The position numbers and the translations under genes are program-made. DNA of 38,050 nucleotides. It comes from a virus. A model generated the notes under the pieces. It had not been told where the DNA came from and did no database searches. It saw only the letters and a list, made by a program, of their open reading frames with translations. The number at the start of each line of letters is the position of its first letter. Within the stretch, counting starts at the first letter, position 1. The DNA is taken from the IMG/VR virus record IMGVR_UViG_3300030419_001945, positions 1 to 38,050 of that record. One strand, given 5' to 3'. This document shows positions 5,351-28,544 of this stretch, in pieces.

Positions 5351-8300
5351 ATGCCAATTAATACAGATTTAAATGTAACACCTTATTACGACGATTATGA
5401 TGAAGATAAAAAGTATCATAGAGTTTTATTCCGTCCATCTGTGCCTGTTCAAGCAAGAGAATTAACTCAATTACAAACAATATTACAAAACCAAGTTGAG
5501 CGTTTTGGTGAGCATATGTTTAAAGAAGGTACCATAGTTAAAGGTGCCTCGTTTATGGATGAAGATATAAAATTTGCCAAACTTAATGATGCCAACACAT
5601 CTTTAACTGCATTAGTTATGTCTGAGTTTGATGATACACACGTAGTAACATCTTCTAATTTAATAGCCCAAGTGTTTGAAAGAAAAGCAGGATTTGAATC
5701 TACTAATCCAGATCTTAATACTATCTTTTTCCAATATGTTAACTCAGGTAATAATGCTGGTACAGAAGAAGTATCATTCAGTGCTGGTCAAACATTAGAT
5801 GTATATTCAACAAATACAACCATAGATTCTGTAACATTAACAAGCAATACTGGAACAGGATATTCAAATGCTGATACAATCACATTTAGTTCTACGTATG
5901 GTTCTAATGCTTCTGCTAACCTTACAACTAATAGTACTGGTGGTATTGTTGGTACATCAATTAACAATACAGCTGCTAAAGGTGTATCATTTAAAATTAC
6001 AGACTTACCAACTGTTGCAAACATTGTAACAAGTACAGGATCAAGTGCTAACTTAGAATTATTTACTGTTGCTCTTACAAAGAAAAATATAGTTACAATA
6101 GCTAATACAAGTTTTAATGATGCAACAGGTAATACAGATTTCTTAACAATAGGTGATGCAAAAAGATTTGAAATTAATGATGGTGTAATATTCCAAAAAG
6201 GTCACTTTGCACAAGTATCACGTCAATCAATAATAGTATCAGATTATACAAATACTCCTAATTCGATTGCAGTAGGATTTATGACAACAGAATCTATTGC
6301 TAATAATACAAGTGATACATCATTATCTGATAATGCAAGTGGTTTCCAAAATGAAAATGCACCTGGTGCTTATAGATTAAAATTAACACCAACACTAGTT
6401 GTTAATACAGTTGCTAATGCAGAAGCAACTAACAATTTCTTTATTGTAGCAAGATATGAAAGCGGTAATATTGTTACAACAAGTGGTCAAACATTATACA
6501 ATAAACTTGGGGACAGATTTGCAAAACGTACACGAGAAGAAAGTGGTAACTATGTAAAGAAACCATTTATTGTAAAAACTGAAGCTATAACTGGTAATAC
6601 AACACATTTAAATGTAGCTGTGGAACCAGGTTTAGCTTATGTAAGTGGTTACAGAGTTGAAACTGTAGGTACATCAAGATTATCTGTTCCTAAAGCAGAT
6701 ACAACACAAAATGTTTCATCTGCAATTGTTTCAACTAATTATGGACAATATCAATTTGTTGATGAATTAGTTGGACATTTTGCATTCAACCATGCAGCAG
6801 AAGTAAAATTATTAGATACAGCTGGCAACAGATTATCAACTTCTTTAGGTACAGCTGTTCCAACTGTTCCAACTACATCTAACACAACTGTTATAACAGG
6901 AACTAATCCTTCATACACAGGTAACATATTAGGTACTGCAAAAATAAGATCAGTTGAATATGATTCTAATACACCTGGAGCTCCTTTAGGTAAGTATAAA
7001 TTATACTTATTTGATATATCAATGAACCAAGGTAAAAGTTATAAAGATGTAAGAGCTATATGGTATAACGCAGAAGGTATAGCAGATGTAGTTTTAAATG
7101 ATGATAATAATGCAGCTTTAAAAGAAACAGATTTTAGAACATTAGTAACAGAAACAGGTAGAAAAGGTGTTAAAGGTACAAATATAAATGGTACTTCTAA
7201 TAACCAATATATTTACCGTACAGTAAAAACAGATGGTGAACTTGCAACTAATGGTTCAATTACATTTACCACAACAGGTACAGAAACATTTCCATATACT
7301 GCAGGTGCATTCTTAAATGCTACACAAGAAAAGGATTGGATAATTGTATCTAATAATGAAACTGCACAAACAGTATCTTTAACAGGTACAGTAGCAGTAA
7401 CTAGTGGAGCCGGTAACGTAACAGGTACAAGTACTACATTTACAGCTGAGTATAAAGCAGGTGACTTTATTACAGTTAACTCAGCAAACACACATAGAAT
7501 TACGTCTGTTGTTAATAATACATTAATGGTAACAGCAAATAACTTTGGTGCTAGTGTATCAGGTAAAACCCATGCTCGTTACTTCCCGGTAGATGTTCCT
7601 ATTAATATGGATGGAACTTCATCTAATGTTTATGTTGGTACTAATTCAAATACAGTAACAATAAATGCAACAAGAGGTAAAGCACTTCATGGTTCTCAAA
7701 CATTAGCAGTTCATGTAACACATAATGTTAAGAAAACAAGTGCACCACAATTAGATAAAACATTAGCAACATCTTTTGTAAAAATAGTATGTAGTAATAA
7801 TGCTGGAGGAACAACTGGTCCATGGTGTCTTGGTATACCAGATGTGTATGATGTACAAAATGTTGTGGTTGCAAACCAAGCATATTGGGATGGATCAACT
7901 GCAGCAAATACAACTCATGTAGAGCGTAAAGAAAACTTTAGATTAGACACAGGTCAAAGAGATGGTTTCTATAGTTTAGGAAAATTATATAAAGACCAAT
8001 CTAATGCAATAACACACGTTGCAAATGATTTCTTTACAGTAAAAGTAAGACACTTTAAGAAAGATACATCAGGTGGAGGTAAAGGTTTCTTTACTGTAGA
8101 TTCATATCCTGTAGATGATACAACAGCTAATAGTACAAACGAATATATTAAGACAGAAGATATTCCAATCTTTATATCAGAAATTACAGGGGATGGAATT
8201 GATTTAAGAAATGCTATTGATTTTAGACCGGTTTGTGCTAACACAGCAACAGAAGCTGCTGCTGTTGGTGATGCAACAATCAATCCAAATGTAGCAGTAT

Positions 8301-11300
8301 CGTTTGCTGCAAGTGAGCATTCAATAGCTGCTCCAAACGAAAATTTCCAATATGATTATCAATATTATGTACCAAGGATTGATAAAATTTATATAAATGC
8401 TCAAGGTGCTTTAAGTTCTGTACAAGGTGCACCAGGTCTTAATCCTCTAACACCAAAAGATATTGATGATGCAATAACACTTAGTACTTTACAAGTCCCA
8501 GTGTATCCTTCACTTTCAACAAAAGAAGCTCGTGATGCTGGTAGATTAGATTATGCTGCAAAAAATAAATCAAATCAAAATCGTGGTTATACTATGGAAG
8601 ATATTGGTCAAATTGATCAACGAGTTAACCGTCTTGAATATTATACGTCACTTAATTTATTAGAAAAGCAAACAAAAGATTTAACTATTCCAGCTGAATC
8701 TAACAATGCTATTGATAGATTTAAACAAGGTTTCTTAGTTGATAATTTCCAAGATTTATCTATTGCAGATACAAGGGATGAAGATTTTAATATTGGTAGA
8801 AATAAAACAGAACAAACAATAATACCTAAGTTTAAACAAAATGGTTTAAATTTAACTATTGCTGGTCATAGTAACACACAACTTACTGGTGATACTCTTA
8901 CACATCCTTATACAGCTCAAGAATTTTTTAGTCAACGATTTGCAACAGTATCAAGAGCGGTTACACAAGGAAATTGGCAATGGAATGGTACTATACAGCT
9001 ATTTCCTAATTATGATGGTTTTACTGATGTAACACTCAATCCTGATAATGTAATGGATTTAAGTATTGATTTATCTTCACAATTTAATTCATTAATAGAT
9101 GGGTTAAATGAAATTGAAGCCTTAACTGAACCTGAAAGAGAAATTTTAAATTCATCTACAACAAGACAAACCGAAGGAAGCAATGGTTGGGGTGAATGGG
9201 GTACTAGTAGAACCACAATAACAGCAAGGGAATCAAGAAATTTATTCCAAAACTCTGAAACAACAACAACAAGAAGAGTTGGTGAATTTGTAACAGATAT
9301 AAGAATGCAGCCATTTATAAGAGAACAAATGATCCATTTCCATGCATGGGGTCTAAGACCAAACAAAAGACATTACATATACTTTGATGGTACAAATGTT
9401 GATGCTAATACAAGACCAGCTTTATCTACAAATACAACAACACATAATAGATCTACAATTTATGCTGCTGGTGCTTATGGAGCCAATCTTGTAACAGATA
9501 GTGCTGGTGAAATGTTTGGTATATTCCATTTACCTAAAGGTGAATTTGCAGTTGGAGAAAGACATGTAGTAATAGCTGACAATGCAACATATTCTGATGT
9601 AGCAGATAATGCAGTGTCAATAGCTGATGAACCTTTCAATGCATATAATTTTGGTATAGAAAAAGGTGGTGTAACACAATCTATAAGAGCACCTGTAATT
9701 ACCAGACAGACTGTTACAGATGTAACAACTACAACAACCACAAGTCGCTGGGCAAGACGAAATCCACCACGTCCGGATCCAATGGCTCAAACATTTATGC
9801 CAACAGGTCCAGATTTAGAAGATTCTGCAGGTGTGCAAATAACATCAATGGATTTATACTTTGCATCTAAGGATCCAACATTAGGTGTAACAATAGAAAT
9901 AAGAAACACAGAAAATGGTTTCCCATCTGATAAAGTTGTACCTTTTGGTAGAAAACATTTGAAGTCTTCACAAGTTAGCACAAGTACAGATGGTCAAACA
10001 GCAACAGCAGTAGTATTTGATGGTCCTGTATTTCTCTCTACAACAGAAGAATATTGTTTTGTTATAATACCAGATGGTAACAGTCCAGATTATCAAGTAT
10101 GGTTATCTAAAACTGGAGGTACAGATGTATCTTCAGGTCAACCGGTAAATGTTGATCAATTTGTAGGTAGTATGTTCCTATCAACAAACAACGTTGCTTG
10201 GAAACCATTTATTGATGAAGATATTAAATTTACAATATATAGAGCTGGATTTACTACAAGCAGTACAAATACAGGTGTTGTAACATTACACAATAAAGCA
10301 AATGAGTATCTATCACTTAATAGTATCAATGGAGTATTTAAACAAGGTGAAATAGTATTCCAAGTAAATGCATCAGCACAGACAACTGGTACAGCTACTA
10401 TGTCAACTTCAAATACAATAGTAACTGGTACAGGTACAGCATTTGATACTGAGTATGCTGCTGGTGACTTTATTACATTCTCAAATACAACTGCTCAAGA
10501 TACAGTAGAAATTGATAGTGTAACAAATTCAACACAAATTATATTAAAAGGTTATCCGTTGATAGCTAATACAACAGGTATAGCTGTTACTAAAACACCT
10601 ACAGGTGTTGTATACTTCTATGATAGTGCAAATAAAGATATGCATATAGAAGATTCAACAGCATCAAGTGCTACATTTAAATTTGCAGCTGATAATTCTA
10701 TAATAGGTGCAGAGTCTGGAGCTAATGCTACAATTGAAAGTGTTGATGATAAAGCAGTAAGTTATTTAGAACCTGTATTATATAAAGCCAACCCTTCATT
10801 GACAGATGTACAAATGTATATTCATGCTAACACAGCATCAGGAGATACTGGTAATACACAAATTAGAACTAATGATAGAGCTTACATGAAAGAAAAAGCA
10901 GTTGTTAAAAGTAAGAGTAATGATTTAACAGGTAAGTTTAAAACATACTTTAAGTTAAGTACAAATACAACAAGATTATCACCTATGATTGATTCGCAAA
11001 CATTAGGATTTAATATGTATGAGAATCAAATTAATAATGATACGACCAATGAACATATTACAGGTCAAGGTAGTGCTTTAGCTAGTTATGTTTCAAAAGC
11101 TGTAACATTAGATGACGGTTTAGATGCTGAAGATTTAAGAGTGTATTTAACAGCATATAAACCTGGTAGAGATAATTGTCAGATTAAAGTATTTGGTAAG
11201 ATTCTATCTGAAGAGGATACAGATACATTCTATGATAGACATTGGACTGAATTAGAATTGATAGGAGATGATCACTTTAGTAATGATGATAATAGGTTAG

Positions 11301-11743
11301 ATTATAGAGAGTATCAATATCAAATACCTCAAACACCAGCAACTACTTTTGTAGAAAATGCTCAGACATTTGGTAATACAACAATAACTACAGCAAGTGA
11401 TGTATCAAGCACATTAACAGCAGGTACATTAGTTAAAGTTACTAACACAGATCCTAATACAGATTATCAAATAGCTACTGTAGCTTCAGCAAGTGGAACA
11501 GCAATAGTATTAGATGAAGCTATAGGTTTTTCAAATAATACTGGAGCAGCTGTATCAACAGTAACATTACCACAGACAGGATTTAAAGATCCTCAAAATG
11601 AAAAAATAGTAACATACTATAATAGTAATGGATCTAAATTTACAACTTACAAAATATTTGCAATTAAAATTCTTTTACTATCAGACAGCACTGCAACAGC
11701 TCCAGCAGTTAAAGATTATAGAGCAATAGCATTGAGTGTATAA
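5351..11743 (+). CDS. Very large DUF4815-type virion structural protein (gp10-like position)
   Basis: 2130 residues. The start YYDDYDEDKKYHRVLFRPSV followed by VQARELTQLQTILQNQVERF is the hallmark of the DUF4815 family, found in T4-like marine phage baseplate/fibre proteins. A second recognisable part begins near residue 1476 (DPMAQTFMPTGP), followed by a jelly-roll-like segment with SMDLYFASKDPTLGVTIEIR, also typical of these proteins. Two related beta domains occur near residues 678 and 1678 (TFTAEYKAGDFITVNS versus AFDTEYAAGDFITFSN), and a weaker third near 2000. The AAGG of the SD overlaps the gp8 stop (TAAGGAAT, 5338-5345). Position after gp7 and gp8 matches gp9/gp10 of T4, which attach fibres to the wedge, so a fibre-connecting role is plausible. 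I cannot align it to T4 gp10 by eye. Confidence 0.72.
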   Translation: MPINTDLNVTPYYDDYDEDKKYHRVLFRPSVPVQARELTQLQTILQNQVERFGEHMFKEGTIVKGASFMDEDIKFAKLNDANTSLTALVMSEFDDTHVVTSSNLIAQVFERKAGFESTNPDLNTIFFQYVNSGNNAGTEEVSFSAGQTLDVYSTNTTIDSVTLTSNTGTGYSNADTITFSSTYGSNASANLTTNSTGGIVGTSINNTAAKGVSFKITDLPTVANIVTSTGSSANLELFTVALTKKNIVTIANTSFNDATGNTDFLTIGDAKRFEINDGVIFQKGHFAQVSRQSIIVSDYTNTPNSIAVGFMTTESIANNTSDTSLSDNASGFQNENAPGAYRLKLTPTLVVNTVANAEATNNFFIVARYESGNIVTTSGQTLYNKLGDRFAKRTREESGNYVKKPFIVKTEAITGNTTHLNVAVEPGLAYVSGYRVETVGTSRLSVPKADTTQNVSSAIVSTNYGQYQFVDELVGHFAFNHAAEVKLLDTAGNRLSTSLGTAVPTVPTTSNTTVITGTNPSYTGNILGTAKIRSVEYDSNTPGAPLGKYKLYLFDISMNQGKSYKDVRAIWYNAEGIADVVLNDDNNAALKETDFRTLVTETGRKGVKGTNINGTSNNQYIYRTVKTDGELATNGSITFTTTGTETFPYTAGAFLNATQEKDWIIVSNNETAQTVSLTGTVAVTSGAGNVTGTSTTFTAEYKAGDFITVNSANTHRITSVVNNTLMVTANNFGASVSGKTHARYFPVDVPINMDGTSSNVYVGTNSNTVTINATRGKALHGSQTLAVHVTHNVKKTSAPQLDKTLATSFVKIVCSNNAGGTTGPWCLGIPDVYDVQNVVVANQAYWDGSTAANTTHVERKENFRLDTGQRDGFYSLGKLYKDQSNAITHVANDFFTVKVRHFKKDTSGGGKGFFTVDSYPVDDTTANSTNEYIKTEDIPIFISEITGDGIDLRNAIDFRPVCANTATEAAAVGDATINPNVAVSFAASEHSIAAPNENFQYDYQYYVPRIDKIYINAQGALSSVQGAPGLNPLTPKDIDDAITLSTLQVPVYPSLSTKEARDAGRLDYAAKNKSNQNRGYTMEDIGQIDQRVNRLEYYTSLNLLEKQTKDLTIPAESNNAIDRFKQGFLVDNFQDLSIADTRDEDFNIGRNKTEQTIIPKFKQNGLNLTIAGHSNTQLTGDTLTHPYTAQEFFSQRFATVSRAVTQGNWQWNGTIQLFPNYDGFTDVTLNPDNVMDLSIDLSSQFNSLIDGLNEIEALTEPEREILNSSTTRQTEGSNGWGEWGTSRTTITARESRNLFQNSETTTTRRVGEFVTDIRMQPFIREQMIHFHAWGLRPNKRHYIYFDGTNVDANTRPALSTNTTTHNRSTIYAAGAYGANLVTDSAGEMFGIFHLPKGEFAVGERHVVIADNATYSDVADNAVSIADEPFNAYNFGIEKGGVTQSIRAPVITRQTVTDVTTTTTTSRWARRNPPRPDPMAQTFMPTGPDLEDSAGVQITSMDLYFASKDPTLGVTIEIRNTENGFPSDKVVPFGRKHLKSSQVSTSTDGQTATAVVFDGPVFLSTTEEYCFVIIPDGNSPDYQVWLSKTGGTDVSSGQPVNVDQFVGSMFLSTNNVAWKPFIDEDIKFTIYRAGFTTSSTNTGVVTLHNKANEYLSLNSINGVFKQGEIVFQVNASAQTTGTATMSTSNTIVTGTGTAFDTEYAAGDFITFSNTTAQDTVEIDSVTNSTQIILKGYPLIANTTGIAVTKTPTGVVYFYDSANKDMHIEDSTASSATFKFAADNSIIGAESGANATIESVDDKAVSYLEPVLYKANPSLTDVQMYIHANTASGDTGNTQIRTNDRAYMKEKAVVKSKSNDLTGKFKTYFKLSTNTTRLSPMIDSQTLGFNMYENQINNDTTNEHITGQGSALASYVSKAVTLDDGLDAEDLRVYLTAYKPGRDNCQIKVFGKILSEEDTDTFYDRHWTELELIGDDHFSNDDNRLDYREYQYQIPQTPATTFVENAQTFGNTTITTASDVSSTLTAGTLVKVTNTDPNTDYQIATVASASGTAIVLDEAIGFSNNTGAAVSTVTLPQTGFKDPQNEKIVTYYNSNGSKFTTYKIFAIKILLLSDSTATAPAVKDYRAIALSV

Positions 11744-11958
11744 TGGATAGAGTAGCAACAGAGGAAAAACATCTTGTTAGAGATACTAATTCTCGCGCAG
11801 TTATAAATACTGATAGAACTGCATATAGTATGTACAAAGCGAAAAGAGATCAAGATAAGCAGGCCAAAGATTTGGTACAAGATGTGAGTAATTTAAAGCA
11901 AGATATGCATGAGATAAAGCAGATGTTGCATAGTTTAATTAGAGGAACAAATGGCTAA
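11743..11958 (+). CDS. Small coiled-coil protein of unknown function
   Basis: 71 residues. The ATG shares its first A with the stop of the 2130-residue protein (TAATG), so the genes are translationally coupled. The second half has a clear heptad-like pattern: AKDLVQDVSNLKQDMHEIKQ, then MLHSLIRG, with V, L, M, I, L and L at a/d-type spacings, suggesting a short coiled coil. The N-terminal half is polar (RDTNSRAVINTDRTAY). Similar tiny coiled-coil genes are common between structural genes in T4-like marine phages. A trimerising or linker part of the fibre attachment is possible but not shown. Its last 8 bases overlap the next gene. Confidence 0.7.
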   Translation: MDRVATEEKHLVRDTNSRAVINTDRTAYSMYKAKRDQDKQAKDLVQDVSNLKQDMHEIKQMLHSLIRGTNG

Positions 11959-12634
11959 AACAACTTATACAGGAGCAAATGTAGCACCAACTACTGATAC
12001 ATTTAGTGAGTGGGTGGATTTAACTAACCGCATTACATATGATATGAGTGATGTTGTTGTAACAGTAGCTGATGTTTCTCAACCAAGTGGAACTAATCAT
12101 GCTGAGACAACTGGTAATGGTCATGTAAATGGTTACTTCTCAAGTAATTATTTAGTAGCCAATACACAATTGAGAGGCGGTACTACTTCTGCTTCTGCTA
12201 ACTTAATTATTGGTTCTGCAACACATCCTGGAGCTAATTTAACATTGGATATGGGTACAACAACAATGGCTTGGGGTAATGTTTATGCAAACAACCTAAG
12301 AGCTTTTGGAGATGTGGAAGCAAACTATTCATCTGATGAAACTTTAAAAATTAATGTAAGAGCTATTCCAGACACTTGGGAAATATTACAACAAATAAAT
12401 GGTTATTTGTTTGAATGGGATATAAATGATCATAGAAAAGATCAAACTGATATAGGTGTTATAGCTCAAGAAGTACAACAAGTGCTTCCTTACTTAGTGA
12501 ATGAAAGAGAAGATGGCAAGCTAGCTGTTAAATATCAATCTCTAATTCCTTTGCTTATAGATGCAGTCAAGAGTTTAAAACAAGAAGTCGACGATTTAAA
12601 GGAGATAGTAGATGGGCGCACTCAAGGTAAATAA
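11951..12634 (+). CDS. Short tail-fibre-like protein with C-terminal S74 intramolecular chaperone
   Basis: 227 residues. Residues 1-125 are a Thr/Asn/Gly-rich fibre-like stretch ending in the WGNVYANNLRAFGDV strand. From residue 127 the sequence is a peptidase S74 (endosialidase chaperone) domain: S127-S128-D129-E-T-L-K at the expected autocleavage site, then LQQINGYLFEWD, TDIGVIAQEVQQVLPYLV, a VKYQSLIPLLIDAVKSLK helix and a terminal coiled coil. In this family the domain helps a fibre trimerise and then cuts itself off at the conserved Ser-Asp site. The fibre part is very short, so this may be a small spike or assembly module. A GAGGA Shine-Dalgarno sequence sits just before the ATG, inside the preceding gene. 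Autocleavage is inferred from the conserved motif. Confidence 0.85.
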   Translation: MAKTTYTGANVAPTTDTFSEWVDLTNRITYDMSDVVVTVADVSQPSGTNHAETTGNGHVNGYFSSNYLVANTQLRGGTTSASANLIIGSATHPGANLTLDMGTTTMAWGNVYANNLRAFGDVEANYSSDETLKINVRAIPDTWEILQQINGYLFEWDINDHRKDQTDIGVIAQEVQQVLPYLVNEREDGKLAVKYQSLIPLLIDAVKSLKQEVDDLKEIVDGRTQGK

Positions 12635-12908
12635 TGTTGAAATTGTTAACAGTACAGCAAATGTTCAATCAGGTACCCTTCCAACAATATCAGGTGTGGA
12701 TGGAACATATGGTGCTGGAGCCAATGGTGTTACACTTACAGTAGATACAAAAGGTTTAGCAACAGCAACAGTTAATAATGCATTATCCTCTTCCTTCACA
12801 GCAAGGTCATTTGATGGTTCACATGATGGTTCATACGCAGTGACCGTTACAACAAGTGCACCTTCGGGTGGGGACAATGGAGACATTCATTATCAGACAT
12901 ACAGTTAG
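12612..12908 (+). CDS. Small virion-like protein, unknown
   Basis: 98 residues, low in charge, rich in Gly, Thr, Ser and Val; no signal peptide or membrane helix. It begins ALKVNNVEIVNSTANVQSG and contains VTLTVDTKGLATATVNNAL, which resembles repeated linker strands of fibre or collar proteins. It ends GGDNGDIHYQTYS, similar to short C-terminal tails I associate with small structural proteins of marine T4-like phages. An AAAGGAG Shine-Dalgarno sequence at 12598-12604 lies inside the S74 gene and supports this ATG; the two genes overlap by 23 bases. Function unknown; a minor virion component is the most likely reading from content and neighbours. Confidence 0.65.
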   Translation: MGALKVNNVEIVNSTANVQSGTLPTISGVDGTYGAGANGVTLTVDTKGLATATVNNALSSSFTARSFDGSHDGSYAVTVTTSAPSGGDNGDIHYQTYS

Positions 12909-12923: not shown

Positions 12924-15900
12924 ATGGCCACTAGACAGTATGCATCATCATATACAGGAGCAGACGGGACGTTTGTACGATCGTATCTAAGTACGACCGC
13001 ACATACCCCTTTGACTTCTTTTAGTACCGCCTATGAAGGTACGTTTGGTGGATACTCTGGTCATTATCTAAAAGTAGAATCAGAACTTCTACATGGTTTC
13101 ATAAAAGCATATACATCTGAAGTAGGTTACACAAAAGTTTACAATAAGAACTGGGAAGGCTCAGTTCTAACCAACTACACTAAACAGTGGGCTGGTAATA
13201 CATCCTTTATGGGTGGTTTAGAATATTTAAAGACTTATGAGACTGAATGGACAAAAACGTATACTGGTGTATATACTAAACTTTGGGAAAAAGATTATAA
13301 TAAAGATTATGAAACAACCTATACTAAGATTTGGGAAAAGGCTTATACTAAAACATATACAAAGGCTTATGTTGGTGTCTACACTAAGTTATGGGAAAAA
13401 GATTATACAAAGATTTGGACAAAGACTTATGTTGGAGCCTACCTAGGTAATTATACTAAACTTTGGGAAAAAGATTATACTAAAGTATGGGCTGGTCCAA
13501 CTTACTATGGTGGGTTTAGTGACGGCCAAGCAGGTACAGCAACCTACACAAAAATATATGTTAAAGCATACGATAAAGTATACGAAGGTTCATTTGATAG
13601 AAACTATGATAAAGACTATACTACAATTTATGTAAAGGCCTATGATAAAACTTATGAAGGTAGTTTTGATGGTAATTGGAATAAAGATTATGTAAAGGCT
13701 TATGATGCAGTCTATACTAAGATATGGACCAAGGCTTACGTAAAGGCTTATGATAAAACATATGAAGGTACATTTGATACAGGCTATGCACAAACAATTG
13801 ATTTTGCAACAATGTTTTCAGATTCAGGTGGTGCTTATGGTATTGGTCTTGTAGACTATGCTCAAACTTATACTGGTGATGTTAATTATGAAGGAGCTGC
13901 AGCATACGCAGGTGACTTTACTTATACCAAAACATATACAAAAATTTATACAAAAGCAGTAAATTTTGCAGGTACAAAAGATTTTACAAAAATTTGGTCT
14001 AAAGATTATGATAAGACATATACTAAAATCTGGTCTAAAGATTATGCCACAGACTATAATAAAACTTATACAAAAATATGGTCTAAAGATTACGGTGCTG
14101 ACTACACTACAATTTATACAAAAGAGTATGAGCTATCTTCTGCAGCTTATGGAGCTGACTATAGTAAGGACTGGTCTAAGGGATATGTAAAAGCCTATGT
14201 TGCACAATACTCTGGTCAATATACAAAACTTTGGTCTACAGATTATACAAAAATTTATACAAAATCTTGGAATAAAGATTATGCCAAAGCCTGGGTAGGT
14301 GAATATACTAAGCTATGGGAAAAAGATTACAACAAAGATTATACAAAAACATATAGTACAGATTATTCTACAGACTATAATAAAACCTATACAAAAGGAT
14401 ATACAAAAGCATATGTTGATGGTTCTAGTGATGTATTCACAGTTACATATGAAAAAGATTATACAAAAACTTATACAAAGATTTGGTCTAAAGATTGGGA
14501 CAAAGATTATACAAAAACTTATACCAAAGCATATGATAAAGTATATGAAGGATCATTTGATGCAACATATACTAAAAATTATGATGCTGATTATACAAAG
14601 ATATGGTCTAAAGATTGGGCTGTAGTTTATAGTGGTGAATATAATAAGAGTTGGGAAAAAGATTATAGTAAAGCATACACTGCAGTATATGCAAAAGTTT
14701 GGAGCCCATCCTATTCTAAAGACTATACAAAAATCTGGTCTAAACTGTGGTCAAAAGATTATAGTACTGATTATGTAAAAACTTATACTAAAAATTATGT
14801 TGAAGATTATTCTACAGATTATACTAAAACATATACAAAAGATTATACTAAAGTATATGCTGGAACATTTATTAATTATAACAAAGCATATGAAGGTGCA
14901 ACAGACTTTCTTAAAACTTATAGTGTTGACTATGCTGCAGAAGTTAATTATATGTCTGGTAGTACAGCTGAATTTGCAGCTGCATATACTAAAATATGGA
15001 CAAAGAATTATACTAAAACATATAACAAACTTTGGTCAAAAGCATATAGTAAAGATTACAGCAAAGATTATACAACAGTTTATACTAAAATATGGTCTAA
15101 AGATTATACAAAAACTTGGGACGGTACTGCATATGCAAAAAACTATACAGGTGTATGGGAAAAAGATTATGTTAAAATTTATGCTAAAGTATGGACAAAA
15201 AGTTATATAAAAGAATATGTTAAAGCATATGCTAAAGCATGGACAAAAGATTATGAAGCTGATTATACTAAAATATATTCAGGTCCATTCACTAAAACTT
15301 ATTCAACAGTTTATGGGGCTGCTGAATATGCTAAAGATTGGAATAAAGTATGGACAGGGGCATTTACAAAAGTATGGTCTAAAGTATGGCAAAAAGATTA
15401 CGGCGCCTCATATGAGAAACAGTATAACAAAAACTATGATAAAGACTATGGTGCTGATTATAGTAAGAACTGGGTCAAAGCATATGATAAAGTATATGAA
15501 GGTGCTTGGACTAGCACGTATACTAAAATTTATAGTAAAGATTATTCTACTGACTATACAAAAATTTGGTCTAAAGTATATGCTAAAGACTATAGTAAAG
15601 ATTATGGCGCAGCTTATAATAAAGATTATGCACAAGAATATACTGCTGTATACAATAAGAATTGGGAACGTGCATATGTTAAACTAACACAAGAATATAC
15701 AAAAGTATATACGAGCGGTGTTCTTTATACAGCAACCTACACAGGTGTATTTAATTTTACAAAATCATATGCACAATCAATAACATATACTGGAGATTAT
15801 TCAGCTGATTATATTAAGGCTTGGAATTCTTATGAAAAAACATATACAAAAGTATGGCAAGGTGCATATGTAGGACAAGAAAAAGGTTATGCAAAAGACT

Positions 15901-18900
15901 ATGTTGGTACTGCTCCATACACTGGCTCATTTACAAAAACATATCAATCAGAAGGTAACTTTACGGGAGTAGAAACATTTAACGTAAGTTATATTGGTGC
16001 TGAGAAACCTTATACAAAAGCATATGAAGGTAATGCTACTTATACTAAAACATATACAAAAGCATATGAAGGTGATATTAGTTACGGTAAAGCGTTTACA
16101 AAAACATATGAAGGTAATATAACTTATACAAAAGCATACTCAAAAGTATATTCAAAAGATTACGATAAAGACTATGAAGGTCTAAATGCTAGTGATATAG
16201 CAACACAATATACCAAAACATATTCAACAGATTATCAAAAAGACTATGCTAAAGATTATGTTGCATTAACAAATTACAATAAAGATTATGGTAAAACTTA
16301 TACAGGTTTAACTGATTACAATAAAGATTATGATAAAGACTATGTTGGTTTATTGAATTATGAAAAAGATTATACAGGACTAATATATTACACAGGTGTA
16401 GGAAATTATAACAAAGAGTATGAAGGGGCATTTATAGGTGCTGCAACATATACTAAACATTATCTTGGTACAGTAAATTGGGATAAAGATTATGAAGGTA
16501 TAAGGCATCAGATGTGGGCTGCTGATTATACAAAAGTATGGACTGCTGCATATTCAATAGACTATAATAAAGATTATTCAAAAGATTGGACTGCAGTATA
16601 TACTAAGTTGTGGGATAAAACTTACAATAAAGATTATGTAGATGCTTTAGGTGACAACTATGTTAAACAATATACAAAAGATTACCAAGCAGACTATACA
16701 AAGATATGGTCCACTGTTTATACTAAATCTTATTCAAAAGATTATTCAAAGGACTGGACTACTGTATATTCAAAAAATTGGCAGCAAACAAATTTCTTAC
16801 AGGTATGGTCTGGTGATACAGATTTTACTAAAACATATACAGGTGCTGCAACTTATACTGGTACAACAAACTTTACTGTTAACTACGTTAAAACGTATAC
16901 AGGTGTATTAGATTATGTTAGAGCATATCGTACAGCAGTTAATTATGAAGGTGATGTAGACTATACTAAGATATGGATTAAAGCATATAGTGGTACAACA
17001 AACTTTACTGGTATTCATAATTTTGCAGGAGCAACTGATTTCAACAAACTTTATACAGGTGTTGCTTCTAACTATAGTATTGCTGGTTATACAAAAATTT
17101 ATGAAAAAGATTATGTAAAAGATTATAGTACCGACTATACAAAGATATGGGAAAAAAATTACGTAAAAGATTATAGTACTGACTATACTAAAGTTTGGGG
17201 AAAAGTTTATACCAAGATTTGGTCTAAAGATTATGTAAAAGATTATGAAACAACATATACTAAGATATGGGCTAAAAATTATGTCAAAGCATATGACAAA
17301 GTCTATACAAAGATATGGACAAAAACTTACGTTAAAGATTGGGTAGTAACTTATGCCCAACATTGGCATAAGAATTGGGTTAAAGATTACGGTGCTGACT
17401 ATACTAAGATATGGGTAGGACCAACTTACTATGGTGGTTTTGCATCAGGATCAGATACAACTAACTATACTAAAATTTATGCTAAAGTATGGTCTAAAGA
17501 TTATGTAGCAGCTTATCAATTGTCATGGCAAAAAGATTATACTAAGATATGGGAAAAGAATTATGTGAAGAATTATGATAAGGATTACAGCACCGACTAT
17601 ACTAAGATTTGGTCCAAAGATTATGATAAAGTGTATACAAAAATATGGGATAAAGTTTATACTAAAAATTGGCTTAGTACATACGCTCAACATTGGCATA
17701 AGAATTGGGTTAAGGCTTATCAGTTATCGTGGACTAAAAATTATGATAAAATTTATACTAAAGATTGGGGTGCTGATTATACAAAGATTTGGGTTGGACC
17801 AACTTATTATGGTGGTTTTGCATCAGGATCAGATACAACTAACTACACAAAAGTATATGCAAAAGTGTGGGATAAAGAGTATACAAAAATTTGGTCCAAA
17901 GATTGGCATGTTGATTGGTCTGATGATTCATCATCATATGCCCAACATTGGCATAAAGATTATGTAGCAGCGTATCAATTATCTTGGACTAAGACTTATG
18001 ATAAAGAGTATACAAAACTTTGGGAAACAGACTATACAAAAATTTGGGTTGGACCAACATACTATGGTGGTTTTGCTTCTGGATCTGATACAACTAACTA
18101 TACTAAAATTTATGCAAAGACTTGGGATAAAGTTTATACTAAGATATGGGATAGAGAATGGGCAGTAGATTGGACTAAAGATTGGATAACTGATTACACT
18201 AAAGCATGGTCTACAGATTATACTAAAATATGGACTAAAGATTATGATAAAGTTTATACTAAAATATGGACTAAGAGATATGAAAAAGACTATGTAAAAG
18301 CCTACGATAAAGTATATGTAAAAAATTATGCTGTAGATTGGGCAAATAATTGGGTAGTTAATTATGATAAAGATTATGAAACAACGTATACTAAGATTTG
18401 GGAAAAAGATTACGTAAAAGATTATGATGCTGTATATACTAAAATTTGGTCTAAAAATTATGTAAAAGATTATTCTACAGATTACGGTAAAGCATATGAT
18501 GCTGTATATACAAAGATCTGGTCAAAGGACTATGTTAAAGCATACGATAAAGTTTATACTAAAATATGGTCTAAAAATTATGTAAAAACTTATACAAAAA
18601 TATGGGCTGTATGGATTAGATATTGGTCAGGTGTGCAAGCATATGTATCACCAAAAGCATATACCGCAGCTTACTCAGGTATATTAAGTTATACAGGTAA
18701 CTATGCTTCAGGTGGATATAAAAAAGATTATGCTAAAACTTGGTCAGTTGATTATACTAAACTTTGGGAAAAAGATTATAATAAAGATTATGCAGCTAAC
18801 TTTACACGTAATTGGCATAAACTTTGGGAAAAAAATTATGGTAATGAATATACCGCTGATTATGATAAGGACTGGGCTGGTCCAACTTACTATGGAGGTT

Positions 18901-20702
18901 TTAGTGATGGCGAAGCTGGTTCATCCATATATTCAACAATATATACTAAAGTATGGTCAAGAGAATGGGTCAAAAGTTATGATGCTGCATACGATAAAGT
19001 ATATGAAGGTGCATTTACAAAAACATATACTAAAGCCTATGACAAAGTATATACTAAACTTTGGGAAGCAACATATACTAAACAATATGAAGGTGGATCT
19101 GCTGGTACAAGAACATACTCTGCTGATGTATCGTTCTTAAATCCATCTACTGCAGTTTCTTACGTAAGTGTACAAAACTATACAACTGGAACACTATACT
19201 TTAATCTTGCTGATTATGTAAAAACATATACCAAAGATTATACTAAAGTATGGAATGATGGCAGTACTGATTATACAAAAGTTTATAGCAAAGATTATAA
19301 TAAAACATATGAGGGTGAAGGTATCTTTAACTATAGAGGAACATTTGATGGCCTAATAGATTACAGTGCAGCATATACTAAAGTTTGGAATTTATCTACT
19401 AACTTCCTTCAAACTTATAGCCCAACATATACTGGTGATCAATACTTTGAGGCTCAATGGACTGGTGAAAGAACATCACATTCAACATATGTTGGTACTA
19501 CTAACTTCATTGGAGCTCATAGTGGTGCATTAGCAAATACTAAACCTCAACTATTTGTTAAGAAGGATGATGTATGGCAACAAGTTAAAAAGTTATGGGT
19601 AAGAGATGGTACATGGAAAGAAGTACCTTACTTCCATACTAAAGAAGGTGGTAATTGGAAACTTGTAAACATAGGTTATAAACATACAGACATATATCTA
19701 AATGGTACTTCAACAGGACCAACTGCAAATACAGAAGATCAGTTCTATATGAGAGGTGAAAATGTTGCAACAGGAACACCTGATACACTAGGTGATAATT
19801 CATCTAAAGGATCTCAATCTCTTACAGGTCATGATGGAGCTAAAACAGCTCACTTTGTAAATGAATTCCACTTAAAAGAATTCTTAGATCATAAAGGTAG
19901 AGATAGTGGTAATTATTTAACTATGACAACTATTCATGTTGGCCAACAAGATCGATTTGATAATATTTTTGTAATGGGTTCGAATACAGCTTCACGTCCT
20001 GCTATAGATTTAACTGGATTTGATACTATATCAGTTAACCAAGTGGATGGTGGAAGTGCTCAATCATTCCAACACTTAGTAAGAATATTAGTACATAATA
20101 ATGGTTATGTTGTAGGTAAAGGTGGTGATGGTGGAGATGCTGCTACAGATACTGCTGGTGCAGCAGGAGCAAACGGTGGTCCAGCTATTAAGACAGATGA
20201 TAAAGTTAAACTATTCATAGAAAATTATGGTACAATTGGTGGCGGTGGAGCCGGTGGTGGAGCTGGTGGTTTAACTATGTATAGTGATCCATCAACAGGT
20301 GCTAAGTCAAGTGAGTTTGCTGCTCAATCAGGATCTGGTGGTGGAGGTGGAGCTGGCTTTACAGTTGGTGCTGCAGGATCTACAGCAAGTGCTGTTACAG
20401 CAGCTGCAGGAGATGGTACACTTCTAACAGGTGGTATAGGAGCTAAACCAGATATATCATCTACCCATAACTCAAGAGTGCCTGGAGGTAAAGGTGGTGA
20501 CCTTGGTGGAATTGGTTTTGGTGCTAACATGGACGTAAACGAGACTGGTGCTTCAACAAGAACAATATGGGCTATGAGTGGAGATGGTGGAACACCTGGT
20601 AAAGCTGTTGATGGATATGATGAAGATCATGTTCACTTTATAGGACCAGGTGGATCAAACAGAGGGTTAATTGCTGGAGACGAAACATTCAAATTGGCTT
20701 AA
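12924..20702 (+). CDS. Giant tetrapeptide-repeat fibre-like protein with gp38-like glycine-rich adhesin tip
   Basis: 2592 residues. Residues 1-60 are a short lead. Roughly 63-2200 is an almost continuous tetrapeptide repeat, [Y/W/F]-x-x-x, with Lys at the third position in most units (Y-TKI-W-SKD-Y-DKV-Y). It is broken by Gly variants (Y-EGS-F-DGN-W) and five GPTYYGGF cassettes. About every fourth residue is aromatic; Cys is absent and Pro and Met are rare. From about 2206 the character changes: LFVKKDDVWQQVKKLWVRDG (a strand pattern seen in T-even distal fibre and gp38 proteins), then from about 2399 glycine-rich loops such as GGGGAGGGAGG and GGGGGAGF, as in polyglycine-helix adhesins. Best reading: a long fibre whose shaft is the repeat and whose tip binds the host. 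No Shine-Dalgarno sequence is visible before the ATG. The shaft matches no named family I know. Confidence 0.8.
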   Translation: MATRQYASSYTGADGTFVRSYLSTTAHTPLTSFSTAYEGTFGGYSGHYLKVESELLHGFIKAYTSEVGYTKVYNKNWEGSVLTNYTKQWAGNTSFMGGLEYLKTYETEWTKTYTGVYTKLWEKDYNKDYETTYTKIWEKAYTKTYTKAYVGVYTKLWEKDYTKIWTKTYVGAYLGNYTKLWEKDYTKVWAGPTYYGGFSDGQAGTATYTKIYVKAYDKVYEGSFDRNYDKDYTTIYVKAYDKTYEGSFDGNWNKDYVKAYDAVYTKIWTKAYVKAYDKTYEGTFDTGYAQTIDFATMFSDSGGAYGIGLVDYAQTYTGDVNYEGAAAYAGDFTYTKTYTKIYTKAVNFAGTKDFTKIWSKDYDKTYTKIWSKDYATDYNKTYTKIWSKDYGADYTTIYTKEYELSSAAYGADYSKDWSKGYVKAYVAQYSGQYTKLWSTDYTKIYTKSWNKDYAKAWVGEYTKLWEKDYNKDYTKTYSTDYSTDYNKTYTKGYTKAYVDGSSDVFTVTYEKDYTKTYTKIWSKDWDKDYTKTYTKAYDKVYEGSFDATYTKNYDADYTKIWSKDWAVVYSGEYNKSWEKDYSKAYTAVYAKVWSPSYSKDYTKIWSKLWSKDYSTDYVKTYTKNYVEDYSTDYTKTYTKDYTKVYAGTFINYNKAYEGATDFLKTYSVDYAAEVNYMSGSTAEFAAAYTKIWTKNYTKTYNKLWSKAYSKDYSKDYTTVYTKIWSKDYTKTWDGTAYAKNYTGVWEKDYVKIYAKVWTKSYIKEYVKAYAKAWTKDYEADYTKIYSGPFTKTYSTVYGAAEYAKDWNKVWTGAFTKVWSKVWQKDYGASYEKQYNKNYDKDYGADYSKNWVKAYDKVYEGAWTSTYTKIYSKDYSTDYTKIWSKVYAKDYSKDYGAAYNKDYAQEYTAVYNKNWERAYVKLTQEYTKVYTSGVLYTATYTGVFNFTKSYAQSITYTGDYSADYIKAWNSYEKTYTKVWQGAYVGQEKGYAKDYVGTAPYTGSFTKTYQSEGNFTGVETFNVSYIGAEKPYTKAYEGNATYTKTYTKAYEGDISYGKAFTKTYEGNITYTKAYSKVYSKDYDKDYEGLNASDIATQYTKTYSTDYQKDYAKDYVALTNYNKDYGKTYTGLTDYNKDYDKDYVGLLNYEKDYTGLIYYTGVGNYNKEYEGAFIGAATYTKHYLGTVNWDKDYEGIRHQMWAADYTKVWTAAYSIDYNKDYSKDWTAVYTKLWDKTYNKDYVDALGDNYVKQYTKDYQADYTKIWSTVYTKSYSKDYSKDWTTVYSKNWQQTNFLQVWSGDTDFTKTYTGAATYTGTTNFTVNYVKTYTGVLDYVRAYRTAVNYEGDVDYTKIWIKAYSGTTNFTGIHNFAGATDFNKLYTGVASNYSIAGYTKIYEKDYVKDYSTDYTKIWEKNYVKDYSTDYTKVWGKVYTKIWSKDYVKDYETTYTKIWAKNYVKAYDKVYTKIWTKTYVKDWVVTYAQHWHKNWVKDYGADYTKIWVGPTYYGGFASGSDTTNYTKIYAKVWSKDYVAAYQLSWQKDYTKIWEKNYVKNYDKDYSTDYTKIWSKDYDKVYTKIWDKVYTKNWLSTYAQHWHKNWVKAYQLSWTKNYDKIYTKDWGADYTKIWVGPTYYGGFASGSDTTNYTKVYAKVWDKEYTKIWSKDWHVDWSDDSSSYAQHWHKDYVAAYQLSWTKTYDKEYTKLWETDYTKIWVGPTYYGGFASGSDTTNYTKIYAKTWDKVYTKIWDREWAVDWTKDWITDYTKAWSTDYTKIWTKDYDKVYTKIWTKRYEKDYVKAYDKVYVKNYAVDWANNWVVNYDKDYETTYTKIWEKDYVKDYDAVYTKIWSKNYVKDYSTDYGKAYDAVYTKIWSKDYVKAYDKVYTKIWSKNYVKTYTKIWAVWIRYWSGVQAYVSPKAYTAAYSGILSYTGNYASGGYKKDYAKTWSVDYTKLWEKDYNKDYAANFTRNWHKLWEKNYGNEYTADYDKDWAGPTYYGGFSDGEAGSSIYSTIYTKVWSREWVKSYDAAYDKVYEGAFTKTYTKAYDKVYTKLWEATYTKQYEGGSAGTRTYSADVSFLNPSTAVSYVSVQNYTTGTLYFNLADYVKTYTKDYTKVWNDGSTDYTKVYSKDYNKTYEGEGIFNYRGTFDGLIDYSAAYTKVWNLSTNFLQTYSPTYTGDQYFEAQWTGERTSHSTYVGTTNFIGAHSGALANTKPQLFVKKDDVWQQVKKLWVRDGTWKEVPYFHTKEGGNWKLVNIGYKHTDIYLNGTSTGPTANTEDQFYMRGENVATGTPDTLGDNSSKGSQSLTGHDGAKTAHFVNEFHLKEFLDHKGRDSGNYLTMTTIHVGQQDRFDNIFVMGSNTASRPAIDLTGFDTISVNQVDGGSAQSFQHLVRILVHNNGYVVGKGGDGGDAATDTAGAAGANGGPAIKTDDKVKLFIENYGTIGGGGAGGGAGGLTMYSDPSTGAKSSEFAAQSGSGGGGGAGFTVGAAGSTASAVTAAAGDGTLLTGGIGAKPDISSTHNSRVPGGKGGDLGGIGFGANMDVNETGASTRTIWAMSGDGGTPGKAVDGYDEDHVHFIGPGGSNRGLIAGDETFKLA
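13108..19520 (+). repeat. Tandem tetrapeptide (12-bp quasi-period) coding repeat, giant protein 1
   Basis: The DNA shows a loose 12-base periodicity built from TAT/TGG + ACN + AAR + ATW-like units. The unit is conserved in protein much better than in DNA: TAT/TAC, AAA/AAG, ACT/ACA and GAT/GAC alternate freely, so exact DNA repeats are short. Five longer cassettes encoding GPTYYGGF interrupt it at 13494-13517, 17418-17441, 17796-17819, 18051-18074 and 18879-18902. Lower-regularity stretches with [F/Y]-TG and [F/Y]-EG units lie near 15720-16140, 16800-17060 and 19290-19530. Boundaries are approximate. Confidence 0.9.
17670..18221 (+). repeat. Copy A of a ~184-residue module shared by both giant proteins
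   Basis: This block encodes, in order: WLSTYAQHWHKNWVKAYQLSW, a GPTYYGGFASGSDTTNYTK cassette, KDWHVDW, YAQHWHKDYVAAYQLSW, a second GPTYYGGF cassette, and a W-AVDW/ITDY ending. The same order and nearly the same length recur at 23274-23828. These His/Gln/Pro-containing motifs stand out from the surrounding tetrapeptide repeat. Confidence 0.85.
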
Positions 20703-20721: not shown

Positions 20722-20739
20722 TAGGTAAAGGAATACCTA
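20722..20739 (+). promoter_or_regulatory. Ribosome binding site displayed in a hairpin loop
   Basis: TAGGTA (20722-20727) and TACCTA (20734-20739) can pair as a 6-bp stem around the loop AAGGAA (20728-20733), which contains the Shine-Dalgarno core AAGGA for the ATG at 20739. The stem reaches the A of the start codon. It may present or partly shield the ribosome site. Stability is modest. Confidence 0.45.
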
Positions 20740-23700
20740 TGGCCAATCCATTAAAGATAAAATATTCAGGTAGTACATTCAACGGTCTTCAAGTAATGAC
20801 CAATGAAGATATGGATTATATTGTCCATCAGCTTCTTACTGAATTTGTTGCAAATACTGGTCCTGGTACTATTTCAACAAATAGTGAACATACCAGCATT
20901 GGTTCATTTGTTGATACAAAACAAACAGAAAATGTAGGACAGACAACTCCTTCTGGTGCAACAACTACAGTTAGCACAACGACTGTATATCAAAATCAAA
21001 ACTCTATTACTGAGTCTGGAATAACTAGACCTCTTGAGTTCATTTCTAATACTAATCCAATAATACAACAAACAGATACAACTTTAAATGCATCATTCAT
21101 ATCAAGAGCATTATCTAATCTAACTGCAAACGGTTTAGGTTCATATGTTATGCAACCTACACAACCTAATAGTCAATATACATCCGTTCTTACATTAACA
21201 AACACTTTAACAAGCAATGGAAGTTCAGCAGGTAACACAACTCAGATTTGGCAAAGAACATCTGCAGCTGCACCAAGCGCTGTTCGTCCTTTAAAACTTA
21301 GTTATACAAATGGTGAGTTTAATGGTGAAATTTATGAAATGACAGACAGTCAAATAAAAGATTGGATTGTTAGATTAAGAAATAGAATGATGACTACCGG
21401 TATTGGTAAGTATGTACTACAAGATGAAGCACCTGCTACTGGAACATGGGTAAAGCAAGGTACTGCATTTATTGATGCAAGATATGTATTTGGTAATGAA
21501 AAAAATTATGTTAAAACATATACAAAAATATACAGTACAGATTATAGTAAAGATTGGTCCAAAGATTACACTACAGTATACTCTAAAGAATGGGCTGGTG
21601 ATTATTCAAAAACATATACTAAACTATATGGTAATGAATATGATAAGATATGGTCTAAAGATTATACTGCAACATATACAAAGCTATGGGAAAAGAATTA
21701 CGTAAAGACTTATGATGGTAATTATACTAAAACATATACAAAGATATGGGCTGGTGAAGTAGATTATTCAAAAGACTATTCAAAAGATTATAGTAAAGAT
21801 TATGAAAAAAATTGGACTAAAACTTATGAAGGTGAATATACAAAATTATGGTCTAAAGATTATTCTACTGATTACAGTAAAGCATATCAAAAAAATTATA
21901 CTAAGATATGGTCGAAAGATTATTCTACAGATTATGCAAAGTTATGGGCAAAGAATTATACAAGTGTAGAAACATTTGATCGTGATTGGGAAAAAGTATA
22001 CACTCATGATTGGACAAAAGCATATGAAAAAGATTATACAAGCGATCAAACTTATAGTCACGAATGGGTTAAAATATATTCTAAAAATTATGACAAAATA
22101 TTTGAAGGCTCATATTCTGGTGCTCAAATATATACTGGTTCATACACAAGCACTGGTAACTATTCAGTAAATTATAGTGGTACTGTTGCATATGAAGGTA
22201 CCTTTGATGTTGTTTATGCAAAGAATTTTACTAAAAGATATAGAAAAAATTATGAGAAACAATTTGCTAAAGAATGGTCAAAAGATTATATTGGTAATTA
22301 TACTAAAACTTATGTTGGATCATTTAGTAAAGACTATTCAAAAGATTATGATAAAAATTGGACTAAAGAATATACAAAAATTTATGAAGGTCATTTTGCA
22401 GGTGGTGCATATCAAAATGATTGGGAGAAACCTTATGCAAATGAATATACTAAGATATGGACTAAAACATATGTTGGTAACTATGTAAAAACATATACTA
22501 AAATATGGTCAAAACTTTGGGAAAAGATTTGGACAAAAGGATATCAAGCAGACTATAATAAAGAATATAATGTTTGGTATCTTAAAGATTGGACCAAAGA
22601 TTATAACCAAGACTACTCAGCTGATTATACAAAGATATGGACTAAGATTTGGTCTAAAGATTATGATGGTGAATATGGAGGATCATTTGATGCCACTTAT
22701 ACTAAAGCGTATACAAAGCGTTATGAAAAAGATTATGTAAAGACGTATTCAAAAGATTATGATAAAGACTATAGTGTAGATTATACAAAGATATGGTCTA
22801 AAAATTATGTAAAAGATTATGATAAAGATTATGTTAAAACTTATACTAAAATTTGGGCTAAAGTATGGCTTGGGGAATATACAAAAGGTTGGGTAAAAGG
22901 TTATGTAAAAGCCTATGATAAAGTTTATGAAGGTGCTTTTGATGCTAACTATACTAAAATTTGGGCCAAAATATATTCAAAAGATTATAGTACTGATTAT
23001 ACAAAGATATGGACTAAAAGATATTCAAAAGACTATGGTGCAGACTATACTAAAATATGGTCCAAAGATTATGACAAAGTTTATGAAGGTACATTTGATA
23101 CAGACTATACAAAAAATTGGGTTAAAACATATACAAAATTATGGGGTGCTGATTATACTAAGATATGGTCAAAAGATTATGGTGATGAATATGCTCAACA
23201 TTACCATAAAAATTATGTTAAAACATATACTAAAATTTGGACTAAAATCTGGGAGAAAGATTATACTAAAAATTGGCTTGTTGCATATGCTCAACATTGG
23301 CATAAGAATTGGGTTAAGGCTTATCAGTTATCTTGGACTAAAACATATACTAAAATCTACACCAAAGCCTGGGATAAAGAATATACTAAGATCTGGGTAG
23401 GACCAACTTATTATGGTGGATTTGCTTCTGGATCTGATACAACTAATTACACAAAAATATATACTAAAATTTGGGAAAAAGATTATGATAAAGTATGGTC
23501 TAAAGATTGGCATGTTGATTGGCAAGATGCATCCGAAGATAATTATGCTCAGCATTGGCATAAAGATTATGTAGCAGCTTATCAATTATCTTGGCATAAA
23601 TCATATGATAAAATTTATACTAAAATATGGGATAAAGATTATACCAAGATTTGGGTTGGACCGACATACTATGGTGGTTTTGCATCAGGATCTGATACAA

Positions 23701-28119: not shown

Positions 28120-28544
28120 TGCCGAAGAATACTGCAGGAGTAGAATTACCAGAATACTTTGTACCTTGTCGTGGTACTATTATGGATTACTATAGACAAG
28201 TAGTTAATAATAGAGGTTGGAAGAATTATCTTGTTACAGAATATAAAGATCTATACCAAGGCTATGATAACGTATTTAAATTTAGAGCAGAGCTAAAAAA
28301 CCGTATACCATTTGATTATGATAATAAACTAAGAGAACATATAGTTAGAAAATCTAATATAAGATTTGTTAATCATGGTAGAGATGGTATGCTAGAAAAA
28401 TACTTTCTCCAAGATCATCATACACTACTTCATATAATAGTTAGTAAAAGAGTAGATACATTAGTATTAATGTTTAAGTATGCTAAAGAAAAAGAACAAA
28501 TAGATGAATGGCTAACAATTGAAAGAAAATATTACTATGAATAA
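28119..28544 (+). CDS. Unknown protein in the modification island
   Basis: 141 residues. Starts at an ATG sharing its A with the TAA of the oxygenase-like gene. It is basic and aromatic, with VPCRGTIMDYYRQVVNNRGW, a YKDLYQGYDNVFKFRAEL stretch and RKSNIRFVNHGRDGMLEKYF followed by a hydrophobic HTLLHIIVSKRVDTLVLMF segment. No known motif, signal peptide or D-x-D was recognised. Tight packing between oxygenase- and glycosyltransferase-like genes suggests it works with them. I cannot say more from sequence alone. Confidence 0.6.
   Translation: MPKNTAGVELPEYFVPCRGTIMDYYRQVVNNRGWKNYLVTEYKDLYQGYDNVFKFRAELKNRIPFDYDNKLREHIVRKSNIRFVNHGRDGMLEKYFLQDHHTLLHIIVSKRVDTLVLMFKYAKEKEQIDEWLTIERKYYYE

Follow-up and report, generated by a model that had tools for sequence, protein, structure and literature searches.

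Aromatic period-4 ladders in two giant proteins of an uncultured, probably T4-like phage: candidate antiparallel beta-hairpin fibres with a gp38-type domain

The distal tail-fibre adhesin gp38 of the T2-type and S16-like phages (PF05268; structures 6F45 and 9V85) is a separate small protein that caps the gp37 trimer via its N-terminal part, and in phage PP01 loop-B of gp38 (residues 161-170) is required for adsorption (PMC12892980). Long regular repeats with stacked aromatics are known from the bacterial ice-nucleation proteins, in which a tyrosine ladder is built from 16-residue beta-solenoid coils (PMC10727499), whereas repeats with a period of four that combine hydrophobic residues with glycine occur in structural proteins of T4-like marine phages, namely as T-G-N-[VL] runs in the YadA-like proteins of S-SSM5 (L005:25978-31926) and S-RIM2 (L014:7414-13152). 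The two proteins described here, P0001 and P0002, resemble the ice-nucleation proteins in having long regular repeats with aromatics that would stack, but they consist of 4-residue units, give no solenoid-like lag signal and have an antiparallel register. The TGNV repeats of S-RIM2 and S-SSM5 differ from them in carrying Val or Leu instead of aromatics, in forming runs of only tens of residues and in belonging to another protein at another gene position; the S-RIM2 matches that were obtained turned out to be these TGNV repeats, which matched the ladder of phage C48C1 alone, and weakly, and were accordingly discarded.

The stretch of DNA analyzed here (the window) is a 38,050-base IMG/VR virus record from an uncultured virus of bacteria. 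A gp8-like baseplate wedge gene (PF09215), the gene for a VrlC/DUF4815 structural protein (5351-11743, plus strand; assigned with Pfam and PHROG, and a conserved neighbour of ladder genes) and a gene with a Peptidase_S74 (endosialidase chaperone) domain (11951-12634, plus strand; PF13884, E=1.9e-12) are followed in the same direction by the two ladder genes, glycosyltransferase-like genes and uncharacterized genes, and, further downstream, by head-tail adaptor, head-closure, tail-sheath-stabiliser and terminase small-subunit genes. The Peptidase_S74 gene lies two genes upstream of the first ladder gene, with a small uncharacterized gene (12612-12908) in between. The gp8-VrlC neighbourhood is as in T4-like marine phages such as HTVC008M and Melnitz; in the stretches of these two genomes that were examined, ladders are absent.

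Ladder gene A (12924-20702, plus strand), for which orthologues are known, encodes P0001, a 2592-aa protein in one open frame with no internal stops that comprises a short leader, an aromatic ladder and a gp38-type C-terminal domain. The ladder (aa 3-2172; 12930-19439, plus strand) forms a single segment according to the ladder HMM, is regular from aa 62 (nt 13107) and has an aromatic residue in 479 of its 521 four-residue units (Tyr 64%, Trp 21%, Phe 7%), with Lys (51%) or Gly (13%) at the third position of the unit; residue-shuffled versions of P0001 contain 1.8 ladder aromatics on average and at most 30. The original prediction, made from the letters alone, had delineated this repeat and its [Y/W]-x-K-x chemistry correctly but had missed the ladder in the adjacent gene, and the runs are not continuous. 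Ladder gene B (20739-25835, plus strand) encodes P0002 (1698 aa), which shows the same regularity: its ladder (aa 257-1676; 21507-25766, plus strand), which mirrored steps and register statistics predict to be an antiparallel hairpin, has aromatics in 344 of 354 units and Lys two residues on in 61%, compared to a mean of 2.9 ladder aromatics in shuffled P0002 and a maximum of 37 across the shuffles of both proteins. The ladders are broken by phase steps (53 in P0001 and 18 in P0002), mostly of six residues (e.g., YTSAVTF), and by turn motifs such as WVGPTYYGGFASGSD.

In codon-aligned orthologues, dN/dS over both ladders is 0.16-0.33 in the compared pairs, indicative of purifying selection, and the ladder aromatic sites are aromatic in 99-100% of the aligned sites even where Tyr and Trp, which are two base changes apart, are exchanged, whereas identity at the two outer positions of the unit is just 37-69%. 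Given this selection and the retention of the aromatics, selection acts on the ladder as a protein feature, and it is more than a repeat in the DNA. No match within either ladder was found in Pfam or PHROGs at the limits used, in agreement with the original prediction that the repeat belongs to no named family (collagen, pentapeptide, RTX, choline-binding and others). P0001 has no sequence match in the PDB, and a search of the open-access literature turned up no paper on such repeats or on giant beta-hairpins.

Ladder relatives were found in about 40 IMG/VR contigs and in phage C48C1, and the wide occurrence in viral metagenomes that had been proposed as a check is thus borne out. About 30 IMG/VR contigs with ladders were detected with a degenerate DNA pattern for Y-x-K-x-W-x-K-x-Y-x-K-x-Y, and 28 IMG/VR loci, including about a dozen further contigs, with a profile built on the P0002 N-terminal domain; each of these 28 loci whose sequence extends beyond the domain enters an aromatic ladder, which comprises between 11 and 700 aromatics, and almost all complete ladder B genes terminate in ...LW[VIL]R[TVI][AST]. 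Among 33 ladder-bearing records, a gp38 domain above the cut-off is present in 19, a VrlC relative in 24 and the P0002 N-terminal domain in 17. The ladder genes keep a fixed place downstream of the baseplate gene gp8 and the VrlC-like gene, with VrlC, ladder A and ladder B as the usual order. Arm length differs about forty-fold among the viruses while both ends are conserved. In two of the contigs (G010, L158/L159; G015, L164) the ladder genes are split into two or more frames, possibly as a result of frameshifts or of assembly errors in repetitive DNA.

The nearest named ladder-bearing relative is phage C48C1 (Kyanoviridae), which encodes a 3347-aa hypothetical protein (WJE88074.1, OQ984149) with an N-terminal domain homologous to that of P0002 (33% identity, E=1e-18). 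Like P0002, this protein has a period-4 aromatic ladder and a C-terminal return strand (YTLYVRVA) and is encoded downstream of baseplate genes; its ladder chemistry is [Y/F]-x-[G/R]-x as opposed to the [Y/W]-x-K-x of P0001 and P0002, the ladder is interrupted by several globular domains, and no GP38 domain was detected in the C48C1 record. The [F/Y]-x-G-x repeats of T4-like cyanophage fibres, named in the original prediction as potential relatives, fit C48C1. The globular domains in the C48C1 ladder (L001:11110-21153) span approximately 105-215 aa and some of them seem to be repeats of one domain; the two that were tested had no Pfam match. Phage records yielded nothing in a DNA-level search with part of the ladder, and tblastn with the P0002 N-terminal domain found nothing among phages at E 0.01 despite the presence of the C48C1 homologue there, so that absence of the ladder from isolate records is weak evidence. 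When bacterial and archaeal genomes were searched for a pattern with Tyr or Phe at every fourth position, only unrelated low-complexity frames, many of them antisense, were among the matches listed, and these were rejected.

The arrangement of the phase steps is informative with respect to the path of the chain. The six-residue steps of P0002 lie at 340/1593, 410/1523, 436/1497 and 482/1451, each pair summing to 1933, so that all four steps of the C-terminal arm pair at this sum. The same was observed in ladder B of G004, where 11 of 11 steps pair at 3175 (to within 1) and these include an irregular gap of 30 residues that recurs in mirror image, in ladder B of G001 (8 of 8 steps, sums 1578-1579) and in G021 (4 of 5 mirrored). 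The mirroring thus appears in four different arrangements, with p values of 1.8e-3, 1e-4, 2.5e-3 and <=5e-5 when one arm is randomly re-drawn, and matching irregularities in both arms are what is expected if the ladder runs out and back. In 14 of 15 long B ladders (1356 to 3134 residues), several of which are close relatives, a register derived solely from the conserved ends matches to within 5 residues. The exception is ladder B of G013, in which the mirror is broken at the base, where there is an extra stretch; in the P0001-type ladders a single global mirror was looked for and not found. Inverted repeats in the DNA were considered as a source of the mirror and rejected: only short imperfect ones are present in the gene, and the protein mirror does not follow from them. 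As a separate observation, close to the hairpin base of ladder B in G004, G001 and G007 (L166, L155 and L156), six-residue steps recur at intervals of 26 residues (6 x 4 + 2).

Residue contacts across the proposed strand pair point in the same direction. In a count over six ladders (G000, G025, G003, G001, G007 and G004), two acidic residues (Asp/Glu) face each other at register C-2 in 32 cases compared to 97 expected, an observed/expected ratio of 0.33 that is the lowest of 201 registers; the next lowest is that of the neighbouring register (0.67), and all others are 0.84 or higher. G004 by itself gives 10 against 33.7 expected (p=9e-9). At this register acids face Thr, Val, Ile and Leu, and the Lys/Gly position lies opposite the aromatics. 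Within the G021-type group, acid avoidance at the register given by the ends was observed in L320, L334 and L337 and, weakly, in G021, and was absent in L317 and L319. Pairing of opposite charges across the hairpin was examined and rejected, the signal being one of acid-acid avoidance; pairing between the P0001 and P0002 ladders gave no signal over background. Over lags 2-120, charge autocorrelation ranges from about -0.09 to +0.17, with neither coil-like depletion nor a solenoid-like period. Together, these statistics strongly indicate that the ladder chain would run out and then back, pairing with itself as an antiparallel beta-ribbon.

The confident elongated fold anticipated in the original prediction was not obtained, AlphaFold2 giving a pLDDT of about 23-45 for the ladder. 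Such very low pLDDT, as well as the low complexity, the aromatic/Lys composition and the strong length variation, would be compatible with a mostly disordered ladder acting as a sticky Tyr/Lys-rich adhesive or a phase-separating tassel, which we nevertheless regard as improbable: the phase is strict over hundreds of residues, the aromatics are kept through Tyr-Trp swaps, and neither mirrored steps nor a contact-like signature at a single register is expected of a disordered chain.

As a test of the hairpin reading on held-out ladders, a residue-pair matrix was trained on eight B ladders and applied to A ladders and to ladder B of G025 and G007. The best stems score higher than those of shuffled sequences, and several are centred exactly on the motif [WYF]xG[PHG]x[YF]YGG[YF] (A of G001 at 2302, of G003 at 506 and of G025 at 2968; B of G025 at 2668 and 3616). 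Motif centres score far higher than random centres (p=7e-16, a comparison that includes B ladders near the training ladders). When 21 registers were compared in the A ladders and ladder B of G025, the one at the motif centre scored best in 59-78% of cases, compared to 5% expected, and this preference (p 2e-8 to 2e-5) also holds when 12, 20 or 30 motif-flanking residues are skipped; given that some motif copies descend from one another or from a common source, the cases are less independent than these held-out p values imply. In ladder A of G001 and G013, a further stem is centred on a second turn, WNSSAATY.

The clearest stems in P0001 pair aa 105-184 with 211-290, 417-496 with 504-583 (turn VDGSSD) and 1393-1472 with 1809-1888. 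The first of these predicted hairpins surrounds the turn motif WAGPTYYGGFSDGQAG (aa 189-204; 13488-13535, plus strand), for which the stem scan (C=395) is above the shuffle null. Another turn motif identified by the motif search, WVGPTYYGGFASGSDT (aa 1497; 17412-17459, plus strand), scores low in this copy and recurs at aa 1623 (17790) and 1708 (18045), with a variant at 1984 (18873). At the distal centre of P0002, three turn motifs were recognized in the sequence at aa 886, 972 and 1070 (WVGPTYYGGFASGSD, WVGHTYYGGYADGNN; 23394-23993, plus strand), and their function as turns would follow from the behavior of the motif in the held-out ladders.

The conserved N-terminal domain of P0002 (20739-21488, plus strand), represented in the 28 IMG/VR loci, consists of three repeats of about 80 aa, the third of which carries the hairpin that holds the ladder insertion. 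The AlphaFold2 model of L318, the smallest complete relative (314 aa, 20 aligned relatives), has a mean pLDDT of 80.6, shows the N-terminal part as three repeats with a long hairpin in each, and has the ladder, with a pLDDT of about 30-45, flanked by strand 240-256 on one side and by the C-terminal strand 288-312 on the other. The corresponding C-terminal return strand of P0002 (aa 1682-1698, ...VTTVNLWVRTA; 25782-25832, plus strand), modelled in L318 with pLDDT 91-95, resembles the return strand of repeat 2 (LWVRT and LWRKT, respectively), a similarity that was equalled in 1 of 500 shuffles. The model together with the strand similarity places the ladder inside a hairpin: as modelled, the ladder of P0002 is an insertion into the third hairpin with its ends side by side, and its strands are predicted to pair. 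No clear relative emerged from fold searches with the P0002-type N-terminal domain; the best VIA-align row, the perforin-2 P2 domain (Z 5.9), was rejected as too low. Among the relatives, L318, L323 and L330 (314 to approximately 418 aa) retain the conserved domain and the C-terminus with only a short ladder, which makes these minimal forms handy for expression and structural work.

The position of the return strand also bears on which chains pair. If residue i paired with residue C-i of a partner chain in a head-to-tail homodimer, the mirror statistics would be identical to those of a hairpin, and these statistics do not separate intrachain from interchain pairing. Such a dimer is unlikely, however: in the L318 monomer model the return strand completes the N-terminal domain of its own chain, numerous local hairpins with turn motifs are predicted in A ladders, and head-to-tail dimerization would place N-terminal domains at both ends of the fibre. 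Intrachain pairing is the simplest reading.

The C-terminal part of P0001 (aa 2383-2564; 20070-20615, plus strand) contains a gp38-type (polyglycine) adhesin domain, with a match to Pfam PF05268 (GP38; E=2.7e-10, 40.9 bits against a curated cut-off of 25) and a match of the C-terminus to PHROG 2056 (tail fibre host specificity; E=6.3e-14). In a Foldseek search, for which the query was an AlphaFold2 model of only moderate confidence in the gp38-type part, the best three PDB matches were all gp38, from PP01 (9v85, E=3e-6, and another at 2e-5) and S16 (6f45, E=1.3e-3); unlike this fold search, a profile search of the PDB with the tip alignment found nothing. The glycine-rich (polyglycine II) motifs align one to one and in the same order with those of S16 and PP01 gp38, with variable loops between them, and in both systems the domain lies at the C-terminal end of the fibre protein. 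The PF05268 profile match begins at position 55 of 218, and the N-terminal attachment part of gp38 was not found in P0001. Given this start and the location in the C-terminal part of a 2592-aa protein, P0001 has a gp38-type domain, fused to a ladder, and is not a gp38 protein.

The equivalent of gp38 loop-B, located by the alignments to S16 and PP01 gp38, is LTMYSDPSTGAKSSEFAAQS (approximately aa 2450-2469; 20271-20330, plus strand). Many relatives (G001, G004, G007, G013, G017, G019, G030 and others) have a gp38-type domain that is split by a ladder of about 800-1,300 aa in the loop-B position, and ladder A of relatives holds a Laminin_G_3 lectin-type domain (LamG in A of G001, E=1e-17). The gp38-type domain, the loop-B insertions and the lectin-type domains support a probable role in host binding. 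The original suggestion of a fibre is backed by this C-terminal domain, by the lectin insertions in relatives and by the baseplate gene neighbourhood, whereas the accompanying picture of a one-way, one-dimensional ladder or beta-spiral is at odds with statistics that indicate antiparallel out-and-back hairpins.

A one-way shaft (beta-spiral, beta-solenoid or trimeric ribbon) leading from a virion-attached N-terminus to the gp38 tip would be in line with the one-way trimeric build that tail fibres usually have, with the leader and the gp38-type tip at opposite ends of P0001 and with the lack of a global mirror in P0001-type ladders. Such a shaft appears doubtful, although of the alternatives to a hairpin it is the one to which we give most weight, ahead of the dimer and then the disordered chain. 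P0002 ladders start and finish in the same hairpin and have mirrored steps; the avoidance among acids is limited to a single, antiparallel register, with no solenoid-like lag period; A ladders, too, score as local hairpins; and the ladder that sits in one gp38 loop of the relatives must have its ends close to each other.

The interpretation that we favor, with a probability of roughly 75%, is that P0001 and P0002 are giant adsorption-fibre proteins of a T4-like (Kyanoviridae-like) phage, with ladders that form antiparallel ribbons as beta-hairpins. Across the strand pair, aromatics would face Lys or Gly and Asp/Glu would face Thr, Val, Ile or Leu; paired six-residue steps would form matched kinks and WxGPxYYGGF-type motifs the turns, and P0001-type ladders would string together shorter hairpins of this type, with lectin domains in some of them. 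The N-terminal domain of P0002 would attach at the baseplate, from which the ribbons would reach outward, with the gp38-type tip, the lectin domains and the exposed turns touching the host surface. The beta structure, the attachment at the baseplate and the contact of tips and turns with the host are our inference, and presence of the proteins in virions is suggested by gene order and domains only. Full extension of a beta strand corresponds to 3.3 angstrom per residue, and an arm of P0002 (about 700 residues) would then be about 0.2 micrometre long, a calculated and not a measured value.

In its role, a host-binding phage fibre that carries a gp38-type domain belongs to a known kind; it is the construction of the fibre that appears new. 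On balance, we are inclined to view these proteins as a new architectural class, in which single chains of up to about 3,700 residues would form giant antiparallel beta-hairpins, sometimes branched, that serve as extendable host-adhesion fibres. In this class, the two arms would be matched by mirrored kinks and single-register preferences, as in a nucleic-acid hairpin, and closed by dedicated turn motifs, and some members would have replaced the receptor-binding loop of a gp38-type adhesin by a ladder. If correct, this would be a previously undescribed construction in which one chain makes up a fibre of hundreds of nanometres, and the underlying sequence code (aromatic-x-Lys/Gly-x, mirrored kinks and turn motif) can be read by eye. 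It would also account for giant unannotated proteins of marine phages and tie the class to host adsorption, test to what extent the register of a two-stranded ribbon can be deduced from sequence statistics alone, and offer a natural template for the design of very long beta-ribbons.

Two further features of the window were noted. Following the ladder genes, region 26556-31312 encompasses five to six consecutive genes that resemble small glycosyltransferases or related enzymes, with a single weak Pfam match (Glycos_transf_2, E=2.6e-4), and phage C48C1 has two genes resembling this set in the same location. A gene for a staphylococcal-nuclease-type (SNase) protein (37592-38023) occupies the end of the window, close to the gene for the terminase small subunit.
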